From positions 1 through 22,638 of IMG/VR virus record IMGVR_UViG_3300048009_000017: a DNA stretch of 22,638 nucleotides. One strand, given 5' to 3'. A model generated the notes under the pieces. That model ran no database searches and was not told the origin of the DNA. It worked only from the letters and a program-made list of their open reading frames with translations. This document shows, in pieces, positions 1 to 22,638 of the stretch. The stretch's first letter is position 1, and the number at the start of each line of letters is the position of its first letter. This DNA is from a virus. The position numbers and the translations under genes were made by a program.

Positions 1-1794
1 ACTCTGGGGTTGATGGTAACCCTGAGACTGCTTGACCCCTTTCTACTCGAAAGTGCAAGACTGTCTTTCTTTGACTCGATGCAAAGAGGACAGGACGCTA
101 AACAATCAGAACAGATTGTCCTTATTGATATTGACGAGCTGACTCTAGAGGAGTTCGGTCAGTATCCTATTCCCCGCGAAACGATGGCAGATGAGTTGGT
201 AAAACTCAATAACTCGATACTGGGTATCAATATCTTGTTGTCAGAACCAGACAGGTTCGGTGGTGATGACGCACTTGCTGATGCGTTGTTTGATATGAAC
301 GCAGTAGTATCCATTGCACCAAACGATAAGACGAACATAGACTCCCGACCAAAACCTGTAGGTGTAGCAACATTCGGTGAAAGAGACGCAGTAGAGTTCC
401 GACCTGAACTTGAGGGTATGTTATTTGCGCGACCTGAAATCATGGACGCTGCAATCGGTTATGGAACAATGTCATCTACACAAGACACTGATGGTATCAC
501 ACGCAGAGTCCCCTTGATTGAGAATTTTGAGGGTCGCATGTATCCTGCCTTTGCATTGGATATCCTTCGTGTGGCTGCGGGTGATGTATCCTATCAAGTC
601 AAGACAGACGATTATGGAATACGATTTGTTCGCATACCGAAGTTTGATGTGGTGCAGACAGACGATAATAGTAATGTGCGTATCGCATTCTGGAACGAGT
701 TCAAGAGATATTCCTTCACAGAGATAGACCAGATACCCGCAGGAAGCATTGCGATACTGGGTGCGACCTTCAAGGGAACATCTGTTGTATCAACTCCTGT
801 TGGTGCGATGTATCCCCACGACATTCAGGCAAACCTGTTGAAGACGATGATTGACGGTGTGACTATCACACGAATGCCAGAGTTTAAGTTTTATGAACTT
901 TTCGCAACGATAGTGGTATCGATAGTGATACTATTCATGTTATCTAAACTCTCTATCGTGATTTCGGGGGTAGTTTTCCTCATCATCAGTTCAAGTTTCG
1001 TGAATGGTGCGTCACTGATATTCGACAATACCTTTATGCTCCTTGACCCTATCTTCCCTGTTATAACATTTGTTATAATCTTCGCACACGGTTCGTTTGT
1101 GCAGTTCTATACGCAGTTCAAAGCAAAGCAGATGATTAAGGGTCAGTTCGGGACATACCTATCACCCGACATGGTTGACATGCTTGCCAAAGACCCAAGT
1201 CTCATGAAGTTGGGTGGTGAACGCAAAGAGATGACATTCCTGTTTATGGATATCTGTGGGTTCACCCCGATATCAGAACACTACAAAAACAACGATGACC
1301 CCGAAGGGCTCGTGCATCTTATCAATGATTATCTGAATCAGATGACTAAAATCATTCAAGACAATGGCGGCACTATAGATAAGTATATGGGTGATTGTAT
1401 CATGGCATTCTGGAACGCACCGTTACCTTGCCCTAACCACGCAGAGATGGCAGTGAAGTCTGCTATTCAGATTGAGGAAAAGACCAATGAACTTAGAAAA
1501 AAATATGAAGAAGCTGGTCTCCCTCCTATCAACGTGGGGACTGGAGTTAACACTGGGGATTGCATTGTTGGCAACATGGGTTCTGAATCCAGATTTGATT
1601 ACTCAGTTATTGGAGATGCGGTCAACCTTGCAGCAAGACTAGAAGCCACTGCCGCACGAGGCGACTACATAGATTACAAGACTATCATATCATCTTATAC
1701 GAATGACCAGATTGATATGCCAACCAAGAAGATTGGTGATATCAAGGTGAAGGGTAAAGATGAATTGATTGAAATTTTTTCTCCTAGAGCGTAA
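1..1794 (+). CDS. CHASE2-domain transmembrane class III adenylate/guanylate cyclase (5' end outside window)
   Basis: Predicted membrane enzyme making a cyclic nucleotide (cAMP or cGMP) from an NTP. The frame is open to the window edge and begins inside a hydrophobic helix, so the true start lies upstream. Numbering from the TTG at position 10: residues ~15-285 resemble a CHASE2 sensor domain (IVLIDIDELTLEEFG, then YPIPRE; DTDGITRRVP later). Three hydrophobic stretches follow at ~296-312, ~315-338 and ~345-366. The cyclase domain spans ~405-590. Catalytic signatures are visible: metal-binding D414 (MDICGFT) and D462 (KYMGDCIMAF), base-contacting K458, and transition-state N539 and R543 (IGDAVNLAARLE). 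The CHASE2-TM-cyclase order is typical of bacterial sensor cyclases, and all key residues look intact. Such a gene is unusual in a phage genome. Neither the signal nor adenylate versus guanylate specificity can be read from sequence. Confidence 0.88.
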   Translation, partial: TLGLMVTLRLLDPFLLESARLSFFDSMQRGQDAKQSEQIVLIDIDELTLEEFGQYPIPRETMADELVKLNNSILGINILLSEPDRFGGDDALADALFDMNAVVSIAPNDKTNIDSRPKPVGVATFGERDAVEFRPELEGMLFARPEIMDAAIGYGTMSSTQDTDGITRRVPLIENFEGRMYPAFALDILRVAAGDVSYQVKTDDYGIRFVRIPKFDVVQTDDNSNVRIAFWNEFKRYSFTEIDQIPAGSIAILGATFKGTSVVSTPVGAMYPHDIQANLLKTMIDGVTITRMPEFKFYELFATIVVSIVILFMLSKLSIVISGVVFLIISSSFVNGASLIFDNTFMLLDPIFPVITFVIIFAHGSFVQFYTQFKAKQMIKGQFGTYLSPDMVDMLAKDPSLMKLGGERKEMTFLFMDICGFTPISEHYKNNDDPEGLVHLINDYLNQMTKIIQDNGGTIDKYMGDCIMAFWNAPLPCPNHAEMAVKSAIQIEEKTNELRKKYEEAGLPPINVGTGVNTGDCIVGNMGSESRFDYSVIGDAVNLAARLEATAARGDYIDYKTIISSYTNDQIDMPTKKIGDIKVKGKDELIEIFSPRA

Positions 1795-2929: not shown

Positions 2930-3499
2930 ATGAATAAAGGTGTTGTATTACCTCAAGTAACATTTCCAACCCGTGTTCGTAATGATGAACTGGGTGGAGA
3001 CAATCCATTTGAATGGCGACAAGTAAATAGTTCGTTTCTATTCGGTGGTAAAGACTTACATAAACGTGTGGTGGTGTTCTCACTGCCAGGCGCATTTACT
3101 CCAACGTGTTCAACATATCAGTTGCCTGACTTTGAGCGTCTGATGGCTGAAGGTGAGTTTGCAAAGTATGGTATCGATGATGTCTATTGTGTATCAGTCA
3201 ATGACAGTTTCGTAATGAACTGTTGGGCAAAAGACCAGAACCTCGAACATGTGAAAGTTGTTCCTGATGGTTCGGGTGAGTTTACTCGCAAGATGGGTAT
3301 GTTGGTTGACAAAGCAAATCTTGGTTTCGGGTATCGTTCATGGCGTTATGCAATGATTGTTGATAATGGTGTGGTCGAGGCATTCTTACCAGAACCAGAC
3401 TTTGGGGACAATCATGGTGAAGACCCATATGGCGAATCATCTCCACAGAATGTCCTAAAAGTTCTGGAAAGTCTCGAAGTGACTGGAGCTCCTGTCTAA
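2930..3499 (+). CDS. peroxiredoxin (AhpC/TSA, Prx5-like)
   Basis: 189-aa thiol peroxidase that reduces H2O2 or organic peroxides. The active-site signature PGAFTPTC carries the peroxidatic cysteine C60 and helper T57. The SVNDSFVMNCW segment and the arginine-containing RSWRYAMIVDNG strand match the Prx5/type II group. A further cysteine (C98) lies in the position region where some relatives form an atypical disulfide. The segment VRNDELGGDNPFEWR fits the N-terminal part of that group. Probably acts in the infected cytoplasm, reduced by glutaredoxin or thioredoxin; the phage also encodes a glutaredoxin inside its NrdA. Read as an auxiliary metabolic gene for oxidative stress during infection. 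The start is supported by AAGGGAAA upstream. No clear promoter of its own was found. Confidence 0.92.
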   Translation: MNKGVVLPQVTFPTRVRNDELGGDNPFEWRQVNSSFLFGGKDLHKRVVVFSLPGAFTPTCSTYQLPDFERLMAEGEFAKYGIDDVYCVSVNDSFVMNCWAKDQNLEHVKVVPDGSGEFTRKMGMLVDKANLGFGYRSWRYAMIVDNGVVEAFLPEPDFGDNHGEDPYGESSPQNVLKVLESLEVTGAPV

Positions 3500-17368: not shown

Positions 17369-19357
17369 ATGCCCGTTAAAATTGACCGTAAGAAAGATGA
17401 CCTACTCGCCGAATATGCAGTAGGTATGCTTAAAGATTTCTACCTACTAGATTATGAGAAGACCCCCCAAGAAGGATTTGCCCGTGCTGCCAAAGCATGG
17501 TCACGTTATAGAGAGGACATGGACGATGCACTCGCACAACGTCTTTATGATTATGTTAGCAACAAGTATTTTATGTTTGCTTCTCCAGTATTATCTAACG
17601 CTCCCAACGGAGAGAAAAAAGACAAAGGGATGCCTATCTCTTGTTTCCTTACATATGTCCCCGATACTCTTGAGGGTCTTATTAGCCACTCTTCTGAGCT
17701 TCGTTGGCTTTCTGTTTACGGTGGCGGTGTTGGCGGACATTGGTCTAGTGTGCGAACGGTCAGTGACATCGCTCCAGGCCCTATCCCATTTCTGCATACT
17801 GTAGATGCGGATATGATTGCTTACCGTCAGGGTAAGACACGCAAGGGTTCGTATGCAGCATACATGGACATTTCACATCCTGACGTTGTAGAATTTATGA
17901 ACATGAGAATTCCTACAGGTGATGTGCAAAGAAAGGCATTGAACCTTCATAACGCTATAAATATAACTGATGAGTTCATGGAGTGTGTCAGAGAAGACAA
18001 AGACTTTGACCTTCGTGACCCAAAAAACAATGAAGTAAAAGATACGGTCAACGCCCGTAAGTTATGGGAACGTCTCCTTGAGATTCGTTTCCGAACAGGT
18101 GAACCTTATCTTAACTTTATAGATACGGCAAACAGTGCGTTGCCACAACCGTTAAAAGATAAAGGACTAAAGATTCACGGGTCAAACCTGTGTAATGAGA
18201 TTCATCTACCAACAGACGCAGACAGAACTGCGGTGTGTTGCTTATCATCTCTGAATTTAGAATACTACGATGAATGGAAAGATACGACTATTGTTCGTGA
18301 CATTGTGCGGATGCTTGATAATGTCTTGCAGTTCTTTATCGACGAAGCACCAGACACAATCTCACGGGCCAAATACAGTGCAGAACGAGAACGCTCAATC
18401 GGACTCGGAGCAATGGGATTCCACAGCCTCCTCCAAAAACACGGAGTCGCCTGGGAATCAGAAGCAGCCAGAGAAATTAATCGAACAGTGTTCGACCACA
18501 TTAAGTCAGAAGCAGTTGCAGAGACTGAACTCCTTGCCGAAGAGCGTGGCGAATATCCTGATGGTATTGGGTCTGGAAGACGCAACTCGCACTTGCTTGC
18601 CATCGCGCCCAACGCTTCCAGCGGAATAATTCTATCAACAAGTCCTTCTATCGAACCATTGAAGGCAAACGCATACACCCATCGAACTCGTGCGGGTTCA
18701 TTCTTGGTAAAGAACAAATACCTCGATGAACTTCTGACTGAGAAGGGTGAGAACAACGAATCAACTTGGACATCTATTATTACCAAGAAGGGTTCTGTTC
18801 AACATTTGCCTTTCCTTACCGAAGGTGAGAAGGCAATCTACAAGACCGCAGACGAACTCGACCAGATGTGGGTGGTTCAACACGCCGCAGAACGTCAAGA
18901 GTTTATCTGTCAAGGTCAGTCTGTGAACCTGTTCTTCCCGTCTGGTGCGGAGAAGTCTTATGTAAACAGGGTTCACTATAGTGCATGGGCGAAAGGATTG
19001 AAAGGTCTCTACTACCTACGCACCGAAGCCAAACAACGCGCAGAGAACGTCTCTGAGAAAGTAGAACGTGTTGCCCTTGCTGGTGACATGAGAACTATCG
19101 TGTATGGTAAATCAGACTGTCCATTCTGTTCTATGGCAAAGGAAGAACTCCGCTTGCGTGGTATTCCTTTTGACTACATCGACCTAAAGGAAATTGGCAA
19201 GACTGCCCGTGAAGTGACTGGTCGAGACGTTAAAACTGTCCCACAGATTTACATCGAAGGTGAATATATTGGGGGTTATGATGAACTTATGGAACACCTA
19301 AATCAACCACTAGAAACAAATGAAGACGATGATGAATGTCGTGCTTGCGAAGGATAA
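17369..19357 (+). CDS. nrdA: ribonucleotide reductase class I alpha subunit with embedded glutaredoxin
   Basis: 662-aa NrdA reducing ribonucleoside diphosphates to deoxy forms for phage DNA synthesis. Active-site residues are present: C92 (PISCFLT) and C290 (AVCCLSSLNL) as the redox pair, N273, C275 and E277 (SNLCNEI) as the thiyl-radical site, and Y548-Y549 (KGLYYLRT) in the radical path. Residues ~574-648 form a glutaredoxin domain with CPFC at 584-587 and the cis-proline TVPQIYI. The protein then ends in an acidic tail with CRACEG (C657, C660), the usual NrdA shuttle pair. There is no N-terminal ATP-cone, so dATP feedback through that site is probably absent. The start is set by GGAAG at 17357-17361. 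nrdB begins 3 nt after the stop. Confidence 0.96.
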   Translation: MPVKIDRKKDDLLAEYAVGMLKDFYLLDYEKTPQEGFARAAKAWSRYREDMDDALAQRLYDYVSNKYFMFASPVLSNAPNGEKKDKGMPISCFLTYVPDTLEGLISHSSELRWLSVYGGGVGGHWSSVRTVSDIAPGPIPFLHTVDADMIAYRQGKTRKGSYAAYMDISHPDVVEFMNMRIPTGDVQRKALNLHNAINITDEFMECVREDKDFDLRDPKNNEVKDTVNARKLWERLLEIRFRTGEPYLNFIDTANSALPQPLKDKGLKIHGSNLCNEIHLPTDADRTAVCCLSSLNLEYYDEWKDTTIVRDIVRMLDNVLQFFIDEAPDTISRAKYSAERERSIGLGAMGFHSLLQKHGVAWESEAAREINRTVFDHIKSEAVAETELLAEERGEYPDGIGSGRRNSHLLAIAPNASSGIILSTSPSIEPLKANAYTHRTRAGSFLVKNKYLDELLTEKGENNESTWTSIITKKGSVQHLPFLTEGEKAIYKTADELDQMWVVQHAAERQEFICQGQSVNLFFPSGAEKSYVNRVHYSAWAKGLKGLYYLRTEAKQRAENVSEKVERVALAGDMRTIVYGKSDCPFCSMAKEELRLRGIPFDYIDLKEIGKTAREVTGRDVKTVPQIYIEGEYIGGYDELMEHLNQPLETNEDDDECRACEG

Positions 19358-19360
19358 CAA

Positions 19361-20320
19361 ATGTCACTACTAGATTTTTCAAAAACATATCGACCATTTC
19401 TCTACCCGTGGGCAGTAGACCTGTCAAAGAAACATGAAGAAATTCACTGGGTAGAAGATGAAGCAGAACTGAGTGAAGACGTTCAGGACTGGAAAACCAA
19501 ACTAAGTGAACCAGAGAAGAACTTTATCACACAGGTTCTCCGTCTGTTTACACAATCGGATGTTCAGGTTGGTGAGAACTACCACGAACTTCTGATTCCA
19601 AAGTTCAAGAACAATGAAGTCCGTAACATGTTATCATCGTTTGCAGGACGTGAAGCCGTTCACCAACGTGCATATGCATTGTTGAATGACACGCTCGGTC
19701 TGCCTGATGAGGACTTTCATATGTTCCTCGAATACAAAGAGATGTCCGACAAGATTGACTTCATGAAACAGGGTGACATCAATAGTCATACGGGTCTGGC
19801 ATTGGCCCTCGCACAGTCTGTATTCAACGAAGGTCTGTCAGTGTTCGCATCGTTTGTGATGCTGTTGAACTTCCAACGCTATGGTAAGATGAAGGGTATG
19901 GGAACAATCGTTGAGTGGTCTATTCGTGACGAGACTCTACACGTTCAAGGTAATGCAAAACTGTTCCGTGAGTTCTGTGAAGAACACCCTCGTATCGTCA
20001 ATGACGAACTGAAATCTAAAATCTATCAAATGGCAAAAGATGTGGTCAAACTTGAAGACCGTTTCATCAAACTTGCATTTGATGGTATGGAGATGGAAGG
20101 TCTGACCGAAGAAGATGTGAAACAATACATCCGTCACATTGCAGACCGCCGTCTGTTACAACTTGGTATGAAAGCAAAGTTTGGTGTCAAGGACAATCCA
20201 CTGCCGTGGTTGGACTGGGTTCTAAATGGCGCATCACATGACAACTTCTTCGAGAAACGTGTTACCGAATATTCCGTGAATGGTATGGAAGGTGACTGGG
20301 GCTGGGACGAAGTAGCATAG
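19361..20320 (+). CDS. nrdB: ribonucleotide reductase class I beta subunit
   Basis: 319-aa radical-generating partner of NrdA. Di-metal ligands by spacing to known NrdB proteins: D67 (FTQSD), E98 and H101 (GREAVHQRAY), E157 (FNEGLSVFA), E191 and H194 (RDETLHVQG). Y105, four residues after H101, is at the radical-tyrosine position, so a tyrosyl-radical enzyme is expected rather than a Tyr-less type. No ATP-cone is fused here either. The C-terminus (GDWGWDEVA) is the acidic/aromatic tail that normally docks on NrdA. Cotranscribed with nrdA from the consensus promoter; the stop overlaps the GTG start of the small zinc-ribbon gene. Confidence 0.95.
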   Translation: MSLLDFSKTYRPFLYPWAVDLSKKHEEIHWVEDEAELSEDVQDWKTKLSEPEKNFITQVLRLFTQSDVQVGENYHELLIPKFKNNEVRNMLSSFAGREAVHQRAYALLNDTLGLPDEDFHMFLEYKEMSDKIDFMKQGDINSHTGLALALAQSVFNEGLSVFASFVMLLNFQRYGKMKGMGTIVEWSIRDETLHVQGNAKLFREFCEEHPRIVNDELKSKIYQMAKDVVKLEDRFIKLAFDGMEMEGLTEEDVKQYIRHIADRRLLQLGMKAKFGVKDNPLPWLDWVLNGASHDNFFEKRVTEYSVNGMEGDWGWDEVA

Positions 20321-20436
20321 TGGATGAGACATATGACCTTGAATGTGAAGTATGTGACCATCGAACCGAAGTTCTAGTCTTCGACAGTGAAGAAGAACCT
20401 TCGTTCTGCCCCATGTGTGGGTCTGCTTTATCTTAA
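20320..20436 (+). CDS. 38-aa zinc-ribbon mini-protein (GTG start)
   Basis: Short gene filling the gap after nrdB. The GTG start shares one base with the nrdB stop, and the product carries two zinc knuckles: LECEVC (C9, C12) and FCPMCGSAL (C30, C33), separated by an acidic hairpin. This is the pattern of rubredoxin/zinc-ribbon mini-domains. A GGGACGAAG stretch inside the nrdB end could serve as ribosome site. Function unknown; a nucleic-acid or protein-binding accessory is likely. Too short for length-based gene calling, but the two CxxC motifs and perfect operon fit make it credible. Confidence 0.7.
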   Translation: MDETYDLECEVCDHRTEVLVFDSEEEPSFCPMCGSALS

Positions 20437-20450
20437 CCCTATATACATCC

Positions 20451-20855
20451 ATGTGGACGTATCAAGGTAAACCATTTGAACCAGAAGACGAACTCCTCGA
20501 AGAATATCAGGGGTTCGTCTACTGCATTGTGAATTTGAAGAACGGGAAGAAGTATATCGGTAAGAAATTCTTCTGGAAACCGAAGATTCTTCCTGTTACT
20601 AAAACAAGAAAACGCAGAGTGAGAACTCGCGTTCAGTCTGATTGGAGAGACTACTACGGTTCATCCAAAGAGGTGCAACTGTTGATTGAAGAGGGTGTAA
20701 CCTTTGAGCGTGAGATACTCCGCCTGTGTTATACCAAAGGTGAGTGTTCCTACTACGAGGCGAAACTCCAGTTCGAACACGATGTGTTATTGAGAGACGA
20801 TTATTACAATGAGTTCATCGGCTGTAAAATCCATTCCAAACATCTTAAATCGTGA
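20451..20855 (+). CDS. SegE-like GIY-YIG endonuclease-family protein
   Basis: 134-aa protein with a GIY-YIG domain: GFVYCIVN (strand 1; the GIY position reads VYC), KKYIGKKFFW (YIG), a basic Lys/Arg cluster at ~52-60, SDWRDYYGSS, and a catalytic-type glutamate in YYEAKLQFE (E103). It matches the SegE-like family common in T4-like marine phages. Members are related to homing endonucleases, but this one sits cleanly in an operon without an obvious interrupted gene, so it may be a resident nuclease. The ATG at 20451 is preferred over the GTG at 20415, which lies inside the zinc-ribbon gene. Its 3' end overlaps the next gene by 47 nt. Confidence 0.82.
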   Translation: MWTYQGKPFEPEDELLEEYQGFVYCIVNLKNGKKYIGKKFFWKPKILPVTKTRKRRVRTRVQSDWRDYYGSSKEVQLLIEEGVTFEREILRLCYTKGECSYYEAKLQFEHDVLLRDDYYNEFIGCKIHSKHLKS

Positions 20856-22047
20856 TGTTCTGAGAGATGGCCTAGAGTGGGTTACTGACCCAAATCGAAC
20901 ACACGATAAAGACTATCTTGTGAGACAGGTTAATCGCATAAAGAACAAACTTATCAAAAGTGGTGTGGAAAAGGGAGACAAGATTACAATCTCCCTCATG
21001 CAAGTTGATGATTTACATGTCGCGTCAATCATTGCATGTGCGGAACTTGGACTTGTTCTATTCCTATTGGATTCTCCCGCCACAGAAGAGTCTCTCCCAT
21101 ATACGAAGGTCGCATTACATGGCCCAACACAGTGGTATATCTCTCAAGGAGATTCTGGTAGAATAACTTATGATGGGTTACACGGAAAATTACTAGACCG
21201 ATACTGTGGTCAACAAATTGATATCCTTGATATGGACGTTAATGTTGTAGTAGATACTCAACCCTCATGGTGGACAGTGGAAGATACCGACCCACTATTA
21301 CTAAGTTCTACAAGTGGGACTACAAAACCATCGAGACCTATCGTGTTCTCACATAGAGAGGTTATGGAAATATCGAAAAGAAACGTAAATGTTTTCGATT
21401 TCGACGAAACTTCAGCTATCGGTCATAGCAGAAACTTACATCATGCATCCTCAATGTTGACATCTCTAATTCCCTCATTGATGATTGCAAAGTATCACAC
21501 TACGTTTGCATTAGGTGAGATGAAGTCTGAGTATATACATTATATTCAGTTTTCGACATTTGTGTGGACAAACCCCTCTCATATTATGATTCCTAATAAA
21601 GAATCCTTAGAACTATTTTTACAGATGTTTAGTGAACCTTTTACAAGAACGTTGAATATCAATATGTGTGGGTTCGCCCTTGATGAACAGTTTGTAGACT
21701 TCGCACGAGAATATAATGTGAAGTTTCATTCACACTACGGGTCTATCGATACTGCAATCCCACTATTGATAAATTTTGTTGATAAGGACAGTGTAGTCAA
21801 AGAGAATGGTCTAGGTGTATTGGCAGATGACTTTTATCAGTTTGATGGTAAAGAAGTTCGGTGTGAACTCTGGGACGAACCAAGATATATCGAGGACGAT
21901 TTGACATTCGATGGTCAGTTCTTTATCGAACCACGAGACTTGCCTGAAGTCCCAGATGATGTTGACCTCGAACCTTTCTTTCAAGATACAAAGATAAATT
22001 TTGAACAACTTCGCGGATATCTAAATGAACGCAATAATAAGTCGTGA
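20809..22047 (+). CDS. ANL-superfamily adenylating protein lacking the C-terminal lid domain
   Basis: 412-aa protein of the acyl-CoA synthetase/NRPS-adenylation/luciferase (ANL) fold. Seen: GVEKGDKITISL and IACAELGLVLFLLD at the N-terminus, the ATP-phosphate loop LLSSTSGTTKPSRPIVFSH (164-182), HSRNLHHASSM (206-216, A4-like), HYGSIDTA (309-316, where typical members have YGxTE), and DDLTFDGQFFIEPRD (363-377) near the domain hinge. It then ends about 35 residues later, so the ~100-residue C-terminal lid with the catalytic lysine is absent. ATP binding and adenylation of a carboxylic acid are possible, thioester formation less so; substrate unknown. The start is supported because ILNRDVLRD matches ISREIIRKD of the paralogue downstream. 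Confidence 0.82.
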   Translation: MSSSAVKSIPNILNRDVLRDGLEWVTDPNRTHDKDYLVRQVNRIKNKLIKSGVEKGDKITISLMQVDDLHVASIIACAELGLVLFLLDSPATEESLPYTKVALHGPTQWYISQGDSGRITYDGLHGKLLDRYCGQQIDILDMDVNVVVDTQPSWWTVEDTDPLLLSSTSGTTKPSRPIVFSHREVMEISKRNVNVFDFDETSAIGHSRNLHHASSMLTSLIPSLMIAKYHTTFALGEMKSEYIHYIQFSTFVWTNPSHIMIPNKESLELFLQMFSEPFTRTLNINMCGFALDEQFVDFAREYNVKFHSHYGSIDTAIPLLINFVDKDSVVKENGLGVLADDFYQFDGKEVRCELWDEPRYIEDDLTFDGQFFIEPRDLPEVPDDVDLEPFFQDTKINFEQLRGYLNERNNKS

Positions 22048-22638
22048 GATTATTCGAAAAGACCTTCTAATCGATGATGTCGATTATGAGAACCTGTGTC
22101 TTGTTATCAACCAACACAAACGTTTCTTTTTATCAAAGGGTATGGAGAAGGGTGATGTCGTATGTCTCAACCTTCCGGCTGATGGTATATCGTATATCGC
22201 ATCCTATATCGCATGTCTTGAACTGGGACTACCGTTATTCATATGGGACAACTTTCTCTGGGATATTACAAATGATGAATACATGCATGATGGCGCAGAT
22301 GATTTTGTAAAGAGAAGTGATAGGGTCATTGACAATATCACCAACTGGACAACCAAGTTCAACACCAATCGTCACTTTGTCCAACATACGATATATGATG
22401 AGGACATAAATTATGAGTTGTTTCCGTATTGGAGAAAAGCATTTGAGGCTCTTGGAAAGACTGGGTTCACTTCATCGTATGAGGGTGTCAGGGGTATGCC
22501 GACAGATGATGTCCAACCGTGGCGGGTCGATAAAGAGGACATTGCAATCGTAGTGAACTATAATCTGGATTCCGACGAACCTAAATTCGGAGATGTCACC
22601 CATCAAGAACTTCTGTCTGGACTGAAAGACTTTCCAAA
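22025..22638 (+). CDS. second ANL-like paralogue with degenerate ATP loop (3' end outside window)
   Basis: The frame is open from ATG 22025 to the window edge, giving at least 204 residues. It overlaps the previous gene by 23 nt. The N-terminus is clearly paralogous to that gene: SKGMEKGDVVCLNL against SGVEKGDKITISL, and SYIACLELGLPLFIWD against SIIACAELGLVLFLLD. At the place of the ATP-phosphate loop it reads IAIVVNYNLDSDEPKFGDVT instead of the Ser/Thr/Gly-rich sequence, though the following THQEL aligns with SHREV. So the fold is likely kept but adenylation is probably lost or altered. It may be a scaffold or regulatory partner of the first protein. The full length and C-terminus are unknown. 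Confidence 0.78.
   Translation, partial: MNAIISREIIRKDLLIDDVDYENLCLVINQHKRFFLSKGMEKGDVVCLNLPADGISYIASYIACLELGLPLFIWDNFLWDITNDEYMHDGADDFVKRSDRVIDNITNWTTKFNTNRHFVQHTIYDEDINYELFPYWRKAFEALGKTGFTSSYEGVRGMPTDDVQPWRVDKEDIAIVVNYNLDSDEPKFGDVTHQELLSGLKDFP

Follow-up and report, generated by a model that had tools for sequence, protein, structure and literature searches.

A putative two-part acid-activating system of uncultured phages: an ANL enzyme variant with a pruned lid and its exchangeable pseudoenzyme paralogue

The window, that is, the whole stretch of 22.6 kb of a viral contig analysed here, carries a pair of overlapping open reading frames, ORF A and ORF B, located 3' of nrdA, nrdB and a gene for a GIY-YIG endonuclease (Table 1). 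ORF A begins within the GIY-YIG gene, with an overlap of 47 bases, and its own overlap with ORF B suggests that A and B are translated in a coupled manner. The GIY-YIG gene is a regular component of this setting and was found in 23 of 24 locus clusters. The reductase gene nrdA (17369-19357, + strand) encodes a glutaredoxin domain at the C-terminus of its product (Pfam 1.7e-13), which provides a built-in reductant. ORF B is cut off by the window end; contigs of the same phage (L002, L003, L011) show that the full-length protein consists of 320 aa (L011:11217-12176). In one of these contigs, L003, A is split into two pieces due to a frameshift or an assembly error.

Table 1. Positions of the ORF A/ORF B pair, its flanking genes and its motifs (window coordinates unless a contig is named)
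Feature	Position	Strand	Evidence
nrdA and nrdB, usual genomic site of the pair	17369..20320	+	Pfam Ribonuc_red_lgC 1.3e-110, Glutaredoxin 1.7e-13, Ribonuc_red_sm 2.2e-72
GIY-YIG (SegE-like) endonuclease gene	20415..20855	+	Pfam SegE_GIY-YIG 3.9e-35
ORF A, predicted ANL adenylate-forming enzyme with pruned lid, 412 aa	20809..22047	+	AMP-binding match, AlphaFold2 model, Foldseek
A3 ATP-phosphate loop SSTSGTTKP (A)	21304..21330	+	SSTSG[ST]T in 55/55 distinct A
A4-like segment HSRNLHHAS with invariant H211 and H212 (A)	21424..21450	+	invariant in both A alignments (A1, A4)
A5-like segment SHYGSIDTA, Asp at the usual place of Glu (A)	21730..21756	+	motif conservation
A10-like lid remnant DTKINFEQLRG with invariant K395 (A)	21985..22017	+	alignment and window scan
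Overlap of A and B, 23 bases	22025..22047	+	ORF coordinates
ORF B, predicted pseudoenzyme ANL paralogue, 5' part, 204 aa	22025..22638 (open at window end)	+	profile link, AlphaFold2, Foldseek
NYNLDSDEPKF replacing the ATP loop (B)	22556..22588	+	loop absent in 32/32 aligned B
DesA-like desaturase directly 5' of B	L048:772-1512, L035:402-1142, L042:721-1461		cassette comparison

Activation of carboxylic acids is the known activity of ANL enzymes, and a first-pass annotation of the window had assigned an ANL N-terminal domain to both overlapping genes. Its coordinates and motifs are right: A contains KGDKITISL, IIACAELGL and SSTSGTTKP, and B contains KGDVVCLNL and YIACLELGL, with NYNLDSDEPKF in the place of the ATP loop. 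The similarity between A and B exceeds chance (phmmer E = 7e-7 in the ORF set of 27 loci). A matches the Pfam AMP-binding family (PF00501) with E = 3.5e-7, slightly short of the curated cut-off. B by itself matches no Pfam family; profiles made from the alignments of either protein reach the N-termini of ANL proteins in the PDB (3.2e-6 for A, 0.0016 for B). AlphaFold2 models built from 32-row alignments are confident for both proteins (A: pLDDT 88, pTM 0.90; B: pLDDT 82, pTM 0.85), and all matches listed in Foldseek searches of these models against the PDB are ANL enzymes, with best E values of about 5e-15 for A and about 4e-12 for B. Those of A include VinN, MatB and FadD-type enzymes at E of about 1e-14. 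With ANL proteins such as FadD-type enzymes, VinN and EntE, A shares the fold of the N-terminal domain, the order A3-A4-A5 and an A10-like lysine near the C-terminus, at a sequence identity of about 12-17% to solved ANL structures.

Phage-borne ANL folds like A are also present among the predicted viral structures of BFVD, where six other viral ANL models were detected at E <= 0.001 (Foldseek E down to 1.6e-20; 13-18% identity), including A0A6J5L571 and A0A6J5L563 from uncultured Caudovirales phages. PHROG covers neither A nor B. Among GenBank phages, one partial match with 30% identity to the A of the window was obtained, and a search of the same phages with a second A gave no match. A cellular origin of the family was considered and dropped, as two scans of cellular genomes with a pattern search that reaches close relatives only returned no relative. 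In the literature searched we found neither a phage ANL pair nor a heteromer of an ANL enzyme with a pseudoenzyme.

ANL enzymes are two-domain machines whose C-terminal lid rotates between two half-reactions. The first-pass annotation had described A as retaining the ATP loop and stopping near the hinge without a lid. The former applies to all 55 distinct A, which contain SSTSG[ST]T; the latter is correct with respect to the lid domain, as A ends approximately 36 residues past the hinge and about 80 lid residues found in ANL enzymes are gone, but it overlooks that the short tail retains a conserved A10 lysine. The tail motif DTK[ILV]xx[ED]QLRG is present in all 54 complete distinct A, and in an unguided alignment its lysine, K395, falls on the catalytic A10 lysine of E. 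coli EntE, FadD, MenE and Acs. When 14-residue windows were compared with these four A10 segments, the one containing K395 ranked first among about 400 (9.1, against 0.9 for the runner-up), and its score was never reached in 300 column shuffles of the A tail. Two other departures from ANL enzymes concern the catalytic motifs. The A5 segment reads HYGS[IV]DT in 49 of the 55 distinct A and, where read, HFG[ST]IDT in the remainder, so that the family consensus is [YF]G[ST][IV]D compared with YGxTE in ANL enzymes, with Asp instead of Glu. The ribose-binding Asp motif A7 (TGD) is unrecognisable in A, and the corresponding stretch is missing in the alignment with EntE, FadD, MenE and Acs; D363 might take the place of the A7 aspartate.

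Catalysis by A is not certain because the A7 motif is unrecognisable and the A5 Glu is replaced. These changes and the loss of most of the lid would also agree with both proteins being catalytically dead and serving as ligand-binding or regulatory proteins of the ANL fold, for example as sensors for acyl-CoA, AMP or some host factor. We regard this as rather improbable, considering that the two segments tied to adenylation chemistry, the A3 loop and the lysine of A10, are retained in all complete A. A3, A5 and A10 together are preserved in practically every A over a range of 38-63% identity. A is therefore, in our judgement, probably an active adenylating enzyme. Formation of a thioester by A is unlikely because the lid face is missing. 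The suggestion that a separate lid domain or a carrier protein might be encoded elsewhere in the phage found no backing: neither a stand-alone lid (PF13193) nor an acyl carrier protein (PF00550) was detected on 14 long contigs, which are possibly incomplete, and a carrier of the host could serve instead.

The replacement of the ATP loop in B noted by the first-pass annotation is real, and the A3 loop is absent from all aligned B. The complete protein ends at the strand that bears A5 in A, and A7, A8, A10 and the lid are all lacking, which rules out that an active second enzyme is hidden past the window end (position 22638). In B of the L021/L028 type the final residues, YGDMES, represent an A5-like remnant, and the B of L053/L054 carries a fused methyltransferase-like domain (Methyltransf_24 2.1e-4 in L053, under the cut-off). 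B is under purifying selection and is not a decaying copy: its dN/dS values of 0.09-0.26 (11 pairs) are similar to those of A (0.13-0.33), and B ORFs remain intact at 20-30% identity. In a joint tree of A and B, which contains several long branches and is arbitrarily rooted, B forms one clade with an SH-aLRT support of 100, which indicates that the split between A and B is old and single. B evolves faster than A (mean pairwise distance of 0.71 versus 0.46). Because defining features of ANL enzymes, the lid and A7, are not found, A is on the basis of its sequence best classified as a variant, and B as a pseudoenzyme relative, within the ANL superfamily.

The family occurs in more than 100 uncultured viral contigs, with 55 distinct A and 57 distinct B. 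Nearly all loci with sufficient flanks contain one A and one B, and no locus contains two B genes. Among 49 loci with a distinct A and one B, 33 have the two genes overlapping or abutting, in 13 a distance of 0.5-1 kb separates them, and in three the distance exceeds 5 kb; an SGNH-like gene often sits between them. Most of the loci that seemed to have A without B are contigs ending short of an upstream site at which B can also be located (see below). Two clades deviate. In the divergent clade L114-L120, A is present and B is absent within 8 kb. In the clade of L013, B is replaced by a third ANL protein of 472 aa (L013:16344-17762, - strand; also in L226), which has a TSG loop, extends further at its C-terminus and is possibly a stage between a full and a pruned lid. 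Mirror-tree analysis lends weak support to a link between A and B, their distances being correlated with r = 0.72, which is lower than the value for A and nrdB (0.86), and with a partial correlation of 0.37. The strikingly conserved pairing makes a functional partnership of A and B likely. Of the enzyme/pseudoenzyme pair proposed by the first-pass annotation, the loop kept in A and lost in B and the pairing itself thus stand, with the modification that B is a selected, exchangeable partner and not a decayed copy.

An alternative is that A is active and self-sufficient, and that B is a separate ligand-binding paralogue that stays with A through linkage and serves the same pathway, with no complex between the two. 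The retention of A in the L114-L120 clade, where B is undetected, as well as the faster evolution of B and its ability to move as far as 8.5 kb away, would be in line with this. We nevertheless consider it unlikely, as each phage has one B although B has been exchanged and relocated repeatedly, and in most of the 49 loci the two genes overlap or abut.

The placement of the pair in an nrd operon, proposed earlier, is only partly borne out. The region 3' of nrdA and nrdB is the usual site of the pair, but A and B were both absent from 80 related viral GIY-YIG loci, most with adjoining nrdA and nrdB (in many of these loci the upstream flank is shorter than 8.5 kb), and B can be located 8.5 kb away from A. 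The start of A inside the GIY-YIG gene, together with sister phages that have the GIY-YIG gene without A and B, might indicate that the pair is passively carried along by a mobile GIY-YIG element beside nrdB and has no selected role. This is very improbable in view of dN/dS values far below 1 in both genes, the conserved motifs and the occurrence of B at another site.

This other site is found in L048, L035 and L042. There, a desaturase-like gene and the B that follows it form a two-gene cassette, at a distance of about 8.5 kb upstream of A. The cassette site is empty in L057 and L039, where a different B lies beside or near A. The A of L048 and L057 are 91% identical and their B about 25% identical, and the same values apply to L035 and L039. 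B is found either adjoining or near A or in the upstream desaturase and B cassette, never at both sites. Judged by these sequence comparisons, B is exchangeable between otherwise similar phages. L048 and its relatives also encode a conserved protein of 466 aa (L048:3765-5165) with an SxxxxDS motif (SLSEGIDS) resembling PP-loops of the asparagine synthetase type; searches of Pfam, NCBIfam and the PDB gave no match for it.

The genes near A and B provide weak hints as to the acid that might be activated. The cassette desaturase has three His boxes (HxxxxH, HxxHH, HxxHH) and matches the DesA fatty acid desaturases (1.8e-6), and in L053/L054 a PhyH dioxygenase gene (1.6e-10) adjoins A and separates it from B. 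The named families nearest to A are fatty acyl-CoA synthetases, with all NCBIfam scores far under the curated cut-offs. These observations point weakly to fatty or other lipophilic acids, although such low scores call for caution and PhyH-like genes may be present for other reasons; that the acid is lipophilic is thus a tentative proposal. A role of the pair in DNA modification, which had been suggested earlier, has nothing pointing to it, whereas the weak hints favour fatty or lipophilic acids.

We propose that A and B may constitute a two-component system for acid activation that is specific to phages, with A as the catalyst and B as its obligate, swappable partner, a reading for and against which we see the evidence as evenly balanced. 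It builds on the observed fold, motifs, lid remnant, one-to-one pairing, exchange of B and purifying selection, and from these we infer catalysis, contact between A and B, substrate and acceptor. A would be the catalytic subunit, in which the A3 loop holds ATP and the A5 aspartate holds Mg2+, and would form an acyl-adenylate aided by K395, the sole conserved part of the lid that is left. A lacks the remainder of the lid, the A7 stretch and the face that forms the thioester, and for this reason it probably performs the adenylation half-reaction only and makes no acyl-CoA itself; the acyl group may be passed on to an acceptor, or a partner or host enzyme may carry out the second step. B would be an ancient paralogue without ATP chemistry, retained as an obligate partner and most likely acting as a heterodimer subunit that shapes the site for the acid or the acceptor, so that a swap of B would alter the target of the pair. 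The likeliest substrate would be a fatty or other lipophilic acid bound for the cell surface or membrane. The A7 and A5 changes in A, the clades L114-L120 and L013 with A and no B or a third ANL in its stead, and the carrier protein and stand-alone lid not found on the 14 long contigs argue against such a system. A more far-reaching version, in which the lid-pruned subunit works only with one exchangeable pseudoenzyme that sets the acid or acceptor, and in which swapping B changes the chemistry of the modification, would make the pair a new class of acyl-activating enzyme in phages; it is conceivable but on balance doubtful.

In enzyme/pseudoenzyme heteromers an active subunit is kept alongside a catalytically dead paralogue, and the retention of A with the dead paralogue B resembles this situation, with a putative contact between A and B. 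A second likeness, by analogy only, is to type I restriction systems, in which HsdS is an exchangeable specificity subunit: both combine a conserved catalytic part with one swapped partner per genome, but the proteins are unrelated and a specificity role of B would be our reading of its exchange. Taken as a whole, the pair suggests an undescribed two-part phage enzyme. A natural family keeping scarcely more than the lid lysine would show the minimal lid for adenylation, and a dead paralogue that is retained and yet swapped would provide one of the rare clear examples in which a pseudoenzyme serves as an exchangeable determinant of specificity. The pair would also point to a chemistry of marine T4-like phages that is undescribed and escapes the existing catalogues of phage families.

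The acceptor is also the subject of a further proposal, which is compatible with the two-component system: the activated acid might decorate surface or virion glycans in concert with neighbouring genes. Genes for a GT8 glycosyltransferase, a HAD-like protein, a NodU-type carbamoyltransferase and a SPASM radical-SAM protein form a conserved cluster 3' of the pair (e.g. L003:16404-21442), and the glycosyltransferase, carbamoyltransferase and radical-SAM genes lie 4-10 kb downstream of it in most loci; exchangeable specificity subunits would suit surface variation. The same cluster is present in related phage loci that lack both genes of the pair, which renders the link unspecific, and we therefore rejected the view that the pair is part of this cluster and hold a glycan acceptor to be a minor possibility. 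Two other genes of these phages deserve mention. The 5' end of the window (1-1794, + strand, 5' end open) encodes a membrane CHASE2 domain (5.7e-31) linked to the catalytic domain of a class III adenylate/guanylate cyclase (Guanylate_cyc 4.1e-20), and a phage-borne transmembrane cyclase of this kind is unusual. The products of window positions 2930-3499 (+ strand) and L013:11301-11837 (- strand) have by eye the look of PRX5-type peroxiredoxins (SLPGAFTPTCS).
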